A stretch of DNA of 10,460 nucleotides from Muribaculaceae bacterium. Lineage in GTDB: Bacteria > Bacteroidota > Bacteroidia > Bacteroidales > Muribaculaceae. Of this stretch, positions 1,907 through 3,716 are shown piece by piece. The position numbers and the translations under genes were made by a program. The notes below the pieces were generated by a model. The model was not told the DNA's origin and ran no database searches. It saw only the letters and a list, made by a program, of their open reading frames with translations. Numbering within the stretch: position 1 is the first letter of the stretch; every line of letters begins with the position of its first letter. The DNA lies in assembly GCA_017962285.1 (NCBI GenBank), contig JAGCVR010000218.1, forward strand, positions 1 to 10,460. The letters run 5' to 3'.

Positions 1907-1947
1907 AAGGGTGCGCCAAACTGAATTGGTGCACCCTTCTTTATTTT
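1907..1947 (+). terminator. Rho-independent terminator
   Basis: AAGGGTGCGCCAA (1907-1919) pairs with TTGGTGCACCCTT (1926-1938) as a 13-bp stem with one G-T wobble around a six-base loop. A T-rich tail (1939-1947) follows. It sits about 30 bases after the stop codon of the Ser-rich gene and isolates the next transcription unit. There is no T-tract on the opposite strand, so it works in the plus direction only. Confidence 0.9.
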
Positions 1948-1967
1948 ACCAGCGCGTCAGAGAATAC

Positions 1968-2317
1968 TCACGCCAGCGGCGTGAAGCTATGTTAAACCCT
2001 ACGTTGCCGCTGCCTTCGGTAGCGGTTACGTAGGGACAGAAGCTCACCCAAGAACTCCCGACCCCGAGGGGGTCGCGCTGCCGGTATCGGAATCATCACA
2101 ACGGCACATCTCCGAAGTGCCTCCTGACTTATGCCATTCTTATCACACAGTACGGTCACGGCAAGCCGTGCCTCGCACAATGTGTTAAGCACATCACCAA
2201 GTCTCCGACTTGCCTGCGCCTCCAGCCTATCTCCACGAGCGAAGCTCGTTTACTTCAACTTTAACTTCAACTTTAACTTCCTCGGGCTCTGCCCGATTAC
2301 TTCCTGCGCGCAGCGCA
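1968..2317. repeat. Array of about ten short hairpins, mostly with 3-nt loops
   Basis: This 350-base stretch has no credible gene and is filled with perfect or near-perfect inverted repeats: 1968-1984 (7-bp stem, loop AGC), 1997-2035 (18 pairs with one T-T mismatch, loop TTC), 2059-2075 (7 bp, GAG), 2103-2121 (5+2 bp around an A-A mismatch, TCC), 2157-2170 (CACGG/CCGTG, loop CAAG), 2180-2194 (6 bp with one wobble, TAA), 2198-2212 (6 bp, TCC), 2235-2249 (6 bp, GAA), 2282-2296 (6 bp, TCT) and 2305-2317 (5 bp, GCA). The stem sequences all differ, so these are not copies of one repeat; the shared feature is the geometry. None is followed by a T-run, so they are not terminators. They lie between a terminator and the ugd promoter. 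The structure is directly visible; the function is unknown. Confidence 0.85.
2254..2277 (+). repeat. Hexamer repeat (TTYAAC)x4
   Basis: TTCAAC and TTTAAC alternate to give two exact 12-bp units, followed by a further TTC. The tract sits four bases after one hairpin (ending 2249) and four bases before the next (starting 2282). It is not inside a coding region. Its length could vary by slippage. Confidence 0.85.
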
Positions 2318-2331
2318 TTAATCCAATTATT

Positions 2332-2341
2332 AATTGCAATT
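2332..2341. promoter_or_regulatory. AATTGCAATT palindrome at the ugd promoter
   Basis: This perfect 10-bp palindrome overlaps the presumed -33 element of the ugd promoter. It follows two ATTAAT direct repeats in the AT-rich stretch 2317-2333. Its position suits an operator, but AT-rich promoter DNA often yields such palindromes by chance. Confidence 0.25.
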
Positions 2342-2363
2342 TGGCATTTTTTTATTATCTTTG
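2333..2363 (+). promoter_or_regulatory. Bacteroidales-type promoter for ugd and downstream genes
   Basis: TATCTTTG (2356-2363) fits the -7 consensus TAnnTTTG exactly. ATTG (2333-2336) is a near match to the -33 TTTG box at a 19-bp spacing. The ugd ATG follows 43 bases later. The next four genes run the same way with gaps of 31 bases or less, so this promoter probably drives ugd through tatD. Confidence 0.7.
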
Positions 2364-2405: not shown

Positions 2406-3716
2406 ATGAACATTTCTGTGGTAGGAACAAGTTATGTGGGACTTGTATCGGCTGCATGTTTTGCCGAATTGGGCGCGAATGTGCTTTGTGTTGACAGCGA
2501 TTCCCGACGCATCGGAACTCTGCTTTATGGTGGCATCCCCATCTATGAACCGGGACTTGAGCCTCTTGTGAAACGTAATGTGGGAGATGGCAGACTGCGT
2601 TTTTCCACAAACATGGCGGAAGCCTATGCGGATTCCGACATAATTTTCTGCGCCGTGGAGACCCCGCCAGCCGAGGACGGCAGCACCGACCTGAGCCAGG
2701 TGCTGAATCTTGCCAAGGCCTTCGGTTCTCAAATCACACGCCCATCCACATTCATCATCCGTTCCACAGTGCCGGTGGGAACAGCGAAGAAAGTGATGGA
2801 AATCATCGAAGACGAACTCGCCAAACGCGGTGAGAAAATTCAGTTCGACGTGGTGAGCAACCCCGATTTCCTGCAGGAAGGAACCGCAATCAAAGACTTC
2901 ATGTCGCCCGACAGAATCATCATAGGCATTGAGTCGAAACGGGCAAAGAAAGTGATGGCGGAAATATTCTTCCCCCTTAAATCGAACAATTTCCCCATCA
3001 TCTACACCGACAGCAACACCGCCGAGATGATTAAGTACGCATCCACATCCATGCTCGCCACACGCGTGAGTTTCATGAACGAAATTGCCAATCTGTGCGA
3101 ACTCGTGGGTGCCGACGTGAACATTGTCCGCCGCGGTGTGGGAACCGACAGCCGCATCGGCTCCAAATACATTTACCCGGGATGCGGCTATGGCGGCACC
3201 TGCTTCCCCAAGGACATAAAGGACCTGCTCAAACTGGCTCACGGGCACGATTTCTCCATGGAAGTGCTGAGTGCAGTGGATGACGTGAACATACGCCAGA
3301 AACATATTCTGTTCAACAAACTTTCGAACTTCTACAATGGAGACCTTGAGGGGAAAACCGTCACCCTGTGGGGTTTGTCGTTCAAGCCTGAGACGTCCGA
3401 CATGCGCGAGGCTCCATCGCTCATCACCTAAGACCTGCTCACCAAGGCCGGCTGCAAGGTGCGTGTCTTCGACCCGGTTGCAATGAACGAATGCCGGCGC
3501 AGATGGAACCAGGTCTATTGCGCCACCGACATGTACGATGCCCTCAAGGACAGCGACGCACTGCTGCTCCTTACCGAATGGCGCCAGTTCCGCCTGCCTC
3601 ACTGGGACCGTGTGAAGGCTCTGCTGAAAACACCTCTTGTGATTGATGGCAGAAACATCTATAACCCCCAGATGATGAAGGAACTCGGTTTCCACTACCA
3701 CTGCATTGGGGTTTAA
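2406..3716 (+). pseudogene. ugd: UDP-glucose 6-dehydrogenase family, interrupted by in-frame TAA
   Basis: The UDP-glucose/GDP-mannose dehydrogenase family oxidises a nucleotide sugar to its uronic acid using two NAD+, supplying capsule or LPS precursors. The frame runs 436 codons, the family's normal length, but TAA at 3429-3431 replaces codon 342. Visible elements are an N-terminal Rossmann region (GTSYVGL, 7-13), STVPVGT, SNPDFLQEGTA, the NTAEMIKYA helix with the catalytic-type Lys 210, and GYGGTCFPKD with the catalytic Cys 266. Then come SFKPETSDMREAPS and, after the stop, the C-terminal sugar-binding domain (AGCKVRVFDP to the NIY motif). The TAA falls early in the last domain, at a position usually hydrophobic in relatives (Ile, Leu or Met). 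A truncated 341-residue product would lack most of the UDP-binding domain. The 94 residues after the stop are still well conserved, so any mutation is recent. Two normally conserved glycines are also changed (Ser 9, Glu 85). Confidence 0.88.

Follow-up and report, generated by a model that had tools for sequence, protein, structure and literature searches.

A hairpin-dense block upstream of ugd

The DNA examined here (the window) is a stretch of 10,460 nucleotides from the Muribaculaceae metagenome-assembled genome (MAG) GCA_017962285.1, contig JAGCVR010000218.1. Between a gene for a serine-rich protein and ugd it carries a non-coding block, at positions 1968 to 2317, that an initial annotation had singled out as an array of unrelated mini-hairpins. 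The block resolves into three elements, termed X, Y and Z (Table 1). X and Y together (1963-2218) are most probably a head-to-head pair of transposon ends that lacks a transposase and belongs to a HUH/Y1 transposon family of this Bacteroidales genus. Such a pair is comparable to a REPIN, the paired form of repetitive extragenic palindromes (REPs), or to a miniature inverted-repeat transposable element (MITE). Z is a repeat of another kind, namely a minisatellite that bears REP-like mini-hairpins.

Table 1. Elements, hairpins and borders of the intergenic block (window coordinates)
Feature	Position	Strand	Description	Basis
Left border	1907-1947	+	Intrinsic-terminator-like hairpin and T-rich run, 3' of the upstream gene	By eye, without a terminator scan
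X	1963-2086	-	Diverged three-hairpin end, A-B-C read on the minus strand	Covariance model match
X, hairpin C	1968-1984	-	7-bp stem, 3-nt loop	Strict stem count, covariance model
X, hairpin B	1997-2035	-	18+3+18 nt, mismatch and wobble pairs	By eye, covariance model
X, hairpin A	2059-2075	-	7-bp stem, 3-nt loop	Strict stem count, covariance model
Y	2093-2218	+	Three-hairpin end, A-B-C	Covariance model, 96.2 bits; the copy itself is among the model's 52
Y, hairpin A	2103-2121	+	8-nt arms, one mismatch, 3-nt loop	
Y, hairpin B	2144-2184	+	Long, inner stem varies among copies	
Y, hairpin C	2198-2212	+	6-bp stem, 3-nt loop	Strict stem count, covariance model
Z	2228-2333		Hairpin-bearing minisatellite, separate repeat adjoining the X-Y pair	
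Z hairpin	2235-2249		Stem ACGAGC/GCTCGT, loop GAA	Strict stem count
Z hairpin	2282-2296		Stem TCGGGC/GCCCGA, loop TCT	Strict stem count, own-genome copies
Z hairpin	2305-2317		Stem TGCGC/GCGCA, loop GCA	Strict stem count
Right border	2340-2363	+	Promoter-like site of Bacteroidetes type before ugd (TTTG ... TATCTTTG)	By eye

Nine hairpins with trinucleotide loops had been proposed for this block. Under a strict definition (perfect stems of at least 5 bp with a 3-nt loop) six of them stand, with loops AGC, GAG, TCC, GAA, TCT and GCA, and the other three are imperfect. The 18-pair hairpin with loop TTC includes a mismatch and wobble pairs, and a single mismatch interrupts the TCC hairpin at 2103-2121. 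The TAA hairpin near 2180-2194 closes only with a T.G pair, and the conserved Y structure assigns some of its bases to hairpin B instead. A tenth inverted repeat, CACGGC/GCCGTG at 2157-2170, has a loop of 2 nt.

Even so counted, the density is far above that of dinucleotide shuffles, which average 0.30 strict stems with a maximum of 3 and reach six in none of 1000 trials; a similar density in shuffled sequence, named in the initial annotation as grounds for abandoning its proposal, is thereby ruled out. Widening the loops to 2-8 nt gives eight stems compared with 1.67 in shuffles (0 of 1000 reach the observed number). Loop lengths of 3 and 5 are both prominent, with six stems each, and we read the 5-nt set as consisting mostly of 3-nt-loop hairpins minus one pair. 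Compared with 100 shuffles for each molecule, the fold of 1940-2340 in isolation has a z of -6.1 for DNA and of -6.2 for RNA. Hairpin density alone cannot identify the element, because unselected intergenic DNA shows a mild excess of tri-loop stems as well. For stems of at least 6 bp the observed and shuffled counts are 16 and 5.6 in the host genome, and 3 and 2.4, 16 and 5.2, 4 and 2.6, and 13 and 4.4 in four relatives.

Structure and distribution of Y

Contrary to the initial view that the block holds no REP-type copies, its parts are dispersed repeats in the host genome and in the genus. A search of the host genome with 1960-2340 yields at least 64 matches at E <=10, and at least 50 by hand count at E <=0.01, the query being included in both. 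These matches concentrate on two stretches, about 2097-2214 (Y) and about 2228-2333 (Z). All copy counts for the host genome, genus and family are lower bounds, with a limited number of candidates scored per genome. A covariance model finds at least 12 copies of Y in the host genome and places Y in at least 43 of 101 genomes of the genus, the host included. Sequence matches occur in at least 28 of the same 101, again with the host, and may be to Z instead.

Y is rarer in the wider family, where a sample of 247 genomes includes at least 13 with Y, from at least 7 of 30 genera (E <=1e-4). Among the matches listed, strong ones outside the genus come from one genome and weak single ones from five. 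The former (G001), a member of another genus of the family, has strong Y-type ends with at least seven model matches, the best at E 6.8e-18.

The consensus of 52 aligned copies has a fixed order and spacing over a total of about 125 nt. Hairpin A (GCACATC-TNC-GANGTGC or a variant) is followed after about 22 nt by the long hairpin B, which varies among copies in its inner part, and after a further 13 nt or so by hairpin C (CAAGTC-TNC-GACTTG or a variant). The alignment leaves out one Y copy with N bases (L043) and all copies that do not fit the collection pattern; the window copy was added by hand. The structure was named beforehand, and pairing was then counted over the alignment.

The stems of Y covary. 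Pairing is preserved in 91.2% of 1531 alignment cells, compared with 77.5% after shuffling and 23-41% when the structure is slid along the alignment. Two-sided changes are found in 171 cells versus 48.7 in shuffled alignments, and the covariation score is 0.298 versus 0.084; none of 500 shuffles reaches either value. One-sided changes are confined to 12 cells. For example, hairpin C occurs as CAAGTC/GACTTG, CAGGTC/GACCTG and CTGGTC/GACCAG, and both CACA/TGTG and CCCA/TGGG are seen at the foot of hairpin B. These compensatory changes uphold the earlier suggestion of a conserved shape without a conserved sequence.

X and head-to-head pairs

The covariance model, built from the 52 Y copies and without X, matches X from end to end, with a score of 33.3 bits (E 1.7e-6 for a search space of 1.5 kb). 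Because this match is on the minus strand, the window has the layout C-B-A (X), 6 nt, A-B-C (Y). It therefore holds an inverted pair of ends with no transposase gene between them, as in REPINs and MITEs. Head-to-head pairs of this kind number at least 10 in 8 genomes, including the host, by hand count; their members overlap by up to 3 nt or stand up to 19 nt apart.

Y1 transposase genes between inverted ends

In relatives, inverted copies of Y about 700 bp apart enclose an open reading frame (ORF) of 147 amino acids with a Y1_Tnp domain, so that the layout is C-B-A-[gene]-A-B-C. The domain (PF01797) is matched by all three proteins searched, which are encoded in relatives and not in the window, with E values from 1e-17 to 7e-19. 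Among 30 loci, all carry the HuH motif and 29 the motif Y---Q--HH. A profile built on 49 homologues finds IS200-type transposases of known structure in the PDB, including ISHp608 (2a6m, 3.5e-10); a PDB search with a single transposase sequence gave no match. The predicted structure is confident (mean pLDDT 92.2, pTM 0.85). Homologues of this transposase are present in 82 of the 101 genus genomes. A listing of 120 homologues includes two with the organism name Muribaculaceae bacterium, so the host itself probably belongs to that family.

The association between gene and ends was examined at 15 close loci (70-100% identity) and 15 distant ones (50-59% identity). One or more elements in the correct orientation are found at every close locus, and 11 loci carry them on both sides, although one of these 11 (L086) lacks hairpin A on one side. 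A further close locus (L084) stops at a contig edge, and the second match at L085 is wrongly oriented. Of the distant loci, 12 have such an element on one side or more, and four on both. Weaker model matches on the opposite strand also occur at Y1 loci, some of them overlapping the main ones. Tri-loop stems of at least 6 bp within 220 nt of the genes total 50 versus 2.1 shuffled at close loci (29 flanks) and 54 versus 2.2 at distant loci (30 flanks). The corresponding numbers for flanks of ugd, used as a control, are 10 versus 3.5 in 14 of 29 loci, the other 15 having been dropped by a motif filter.

The flanks of the more distant genes (L093-L106) keep the A-B-C plan with unrelated stems, such as CGTC-TTC-GACG, GTGGGTC-TTC-GACCCAC and CGGGTC-TTC-GACCCG, and an extra hairpin resembling CCTC-TTC-GAGG is frequent there. 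At L086 (G209:C67), end elements in both orientations are crowded around one Y1 gene, possibly at a site of ongoing duplication.

Unit boundaries and an orthologous site

Five elements from five genomes (L077-L080 and L082) are alike from locus positions 1299-1332 to 2068-2095, that is, from hairpin C to hairpin C. This unit of about 750 nt sits in unrelated contexts in the five genomes. Beyond it nothing is common at E <=1e-5 save one 30-nt match to an additional hairpin in L077.

Four other loci (L083 and L088-L090) represent one common site upstream of a phosphodiesterase-like gene, which is present in 88 of the 101 genus genomes. Thirty of these 88 sites were read: five have a full transposase gene, two have fragments and 23 have none. 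Ten of the gene-less sites have an intergenic stretch of at most 131 nt, and the rest have stretches of 188 to 756 nt. Hairpins are kept without the gene at L214 (model match G192:C40:18930-19050), and an apparent start of the transposase gene is retained, as judged by eye, at L222 and L231. The site is full in some genomes and decayed or empty in others. Such states would be the stages leading from a complete element to what is seen in the window, in an order of events that we infer.

A probable transposon end conserved mostly in shape

The A-B-C row lies in inverted orientation beside Y1 genes and has covarying stems. It also delimits a unit of about 750 nt that recurs in unrelated contexts, and it occurs without the gene at a relative's orthologous site. 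These observations carry the assignment of X and Y to a pair of transposon ends. Each end would be a row of about 125 nt with three hairpins, mostly with 3-nt loops. The enzyme presumably binds the folded single strand by its shape and a few fixed bases, and its cut may fall near hairpin C. Pairs without a gene would be moved in trans, now or formerly. The initial annotation had considered serial insertion of tiny palindromic elements. Insertion is retained, and the unit is not a single mini-hairpin; it is a three-hairpin end, present as an inverted pair, with a separate minisatellite beside it. Its other suggestion, DNA hairpins, is borne out too; we think that the scarcity of one-sided changes fits DNA better than RNA.

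Several points weigh against this assignment. For X, a score of 33 bits is significant in a search of 1.5 kb and not in one of a whole genome, and X is absent among the genome-scale model matches listed. A sequence search with X finds only one other place in the host genome (78%), together with weak, short matches in two further genomes, so its assignment rests on the structure model. For Y, 'further pair types' are not clearly above expectation (41 versus 36.8 shuffled, with 44 of 500 shuffles reaching this number), and 135 of the 1531 cells are unpaired, the outermost pair of hairpin A accounting for 31. The invariant pairs at the foot of hairpin B prove nothing, because the collection pattern fixed part of that foot. 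The host MAG, which is 61% complete, yielded no Y1 gene, and three distant Y1 loci (L101, L104 and L105) have no model match. Finally, the opposite layout, plus followed by minus, exists at least at G209:C67, G212:C3 and G155:C45 with spacings of 18-55 nt.

A broader proposal is more tentative, and we hold it slightly more doubtful than not. Y1 transposases resembling subclass 1.2 might read three-hairpin ends mainly by shape, such that pairing, loops of 3-4 nt and spacing are kept while the stems can be rewritten. Hairpins would then be exchangeable cassettes, and unlike gene-less pairs such as X and Y could still be substrates. In the same proposal Z would be a second, independent palindrome family in which stems are kept and loops are free.

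Relationship to known systems

The nearest competing explanation is a canonical REP or REPIN mobilized by a known group of REP-associated tyrosine transposases (RAYTs), which we consider improbable. The general plan is the same, according to the available text of published accounts: inverted palindromic pairs with short loops dispersed in intergenic space, and those units again on either side of a Y1 enzyme (PMC3116915, PMC3733652, PMC8266576). Canonical units are single hairpins of 20-50 nt, whereas those found here have three hairpins over about 125 nt. No GTAG or GTGG tag is seen by eye at the hairpin feet in the 52-copy Y alignment, and the NCBIfam REP-transposase model, with its cut-off of 80 bits, gives none of five enzymes more than 30.

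A second comparison is with IS200/IS605 elements such as IS608 and ISDra2. As described in the portion of a 2018 survey available to us, their enzyme binds a single small hairpin (20-25 nt) per end, and the position of the cut is set by a guide tetranucleotide (PMC6006769). The elements described here share the Y1_Tnp fold family and are likewise small units with hairpins at either end. They differ in having three hairpins per end over about 125 nt, in two ends that are inverted copies of one plan, and in the absence of a visible accessory gene between them. A guide tetranucleotide was not identified here, and no search was aimed at one. On the NCBIfam IS200 transposase model the same five proteins score 45-67 bits, and two of them exceed the cut-off of 55.

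The transposases resemble Y1 subclass 1.2, for which the same portion of the survey gives a median length of 148 amino acids, the signatures DH[IV]H and WQ, generally no terminal IS200 secondary structures and no listed REP (PMC6006769). Similarities are the Y---Q--HH motif, the length of 147 amino acids and the occurrence in Bacteroidetes. Unlike that description, these enzymes have NH[IVL]H and a WG consensus (with W93 invariant), and terminal structures are present. Only a resemblance is claimed, because DH[IV]H and WQ are unmatched and the comparison is by motif and length, not by a tree. Subclass 2.6, which is RAYT group 5, belongs to the same phylum, and its genes are said in that text to have 'atypical secondary structures' alongside, copies of which occur at other places in the genome (PMC6006769). 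The motif YIH[QN]NP and median length of 179 amino acids of subclass 2.6 differ from Y---Q--HH and 147.

The X-Y family supplies a candidate substrate for a transposase group that the survey, in the text available, regards as generally without terminal structures (PMC6006769). It is a DNA element conserved mostly in shape: the A-B-C order, spacing and short loops persist, and the stems differ among copies and subfamilies. How far a HUH enzyme can read structure instead of sequence thus becomes a testable question, and the puzzling hairpin-dense intergenic blocks of this genus gain an ordinary explanation.

Alternative origins

The initial annotation also allowed for a structured RNA, and a non-coding RNA or an RNA leader of ugd would suit both the strong RNA fold and the covariation of Y. 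This origin is quite unlikely. Structured RNAs are expected to show many more G-U intermediates than the 12 one-sided cells seen beside 171 two-sided ones. An RNA is disfavoured because one-sided G-T changes are this scarce and because a transposase gene has the element on either side in inverted orientation, in contexts that are mutually unrelated. Rfam has no match within the window at gathering scores.

Even less probable is a mutational by-product, in which template switching or hairpin repair keeps producing perfect short palindromes in intergenic DNA. Such a process could account for stems that differ among copies with loops that stay short, for the mild general excess of intergenic hairpins, and for the one Z stem family in which loops vary far more than stems. 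It does not account for the fixed order and spacing of A-B-C, the fixed bases between the hairpins or the association with Y1 genes. The same processes may nevertheless be the route by which single stems of the transposon ends are replaced. Chance, or a decayed gene whose codons form palindromes, is hardly credible: there are ORFs of 66-92 codons that overlap the block, but no shuffle reaches its hairpin count and its repeats recur elsewhere in the genome and genus.

The Z minisatellite

In the TCGGGC family of Z, represented in the window and by own-genome copies in L009-L028, stems are 96.9% alike and the 3-nt loops 34.8% alike, which is near random. On the complementary strand AGTAA precedes the TCGGGC stem. 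One host locus (L023, G000:C65:5700-8700) has three Z arrays, each lying between successive genes. Each array consists of GAAGTTAAAG-type repeats followed by the TTTTACTTC-type complement, and is thus an inverted array.

Neighbouring genes and host

The block lies between a terminator and a promoter, as the initial annotation had stated and as reading by eye agrees; the promoter is a candidate site of the Bacteroidetes type. Plasmid and phage collections have no match for the window or the block. The host MAG has a size of 1.48 Mb. The nearest named relatives of its Ugd are in the Bacteroidales MAGs RUG13202 (81%) and SIG122 and RGIG7307 (62-63%). Comparison of the ugd upstream region across strains, which had been recommended, is uninformative, as the upstream sequence differs by eye in RUG13202 and SIG122.

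Two frames in the window are broken by an in-frame TAA and are otherwise continuous. One is at 733-735 in the serine-rich protein frame (241-1875), and the other is at 3429-3431 in ugd (2406-3716). The ugd frames of genus relatives are open, so the broken frames may be due to a sequencing error or may mark recent pseudogenes.
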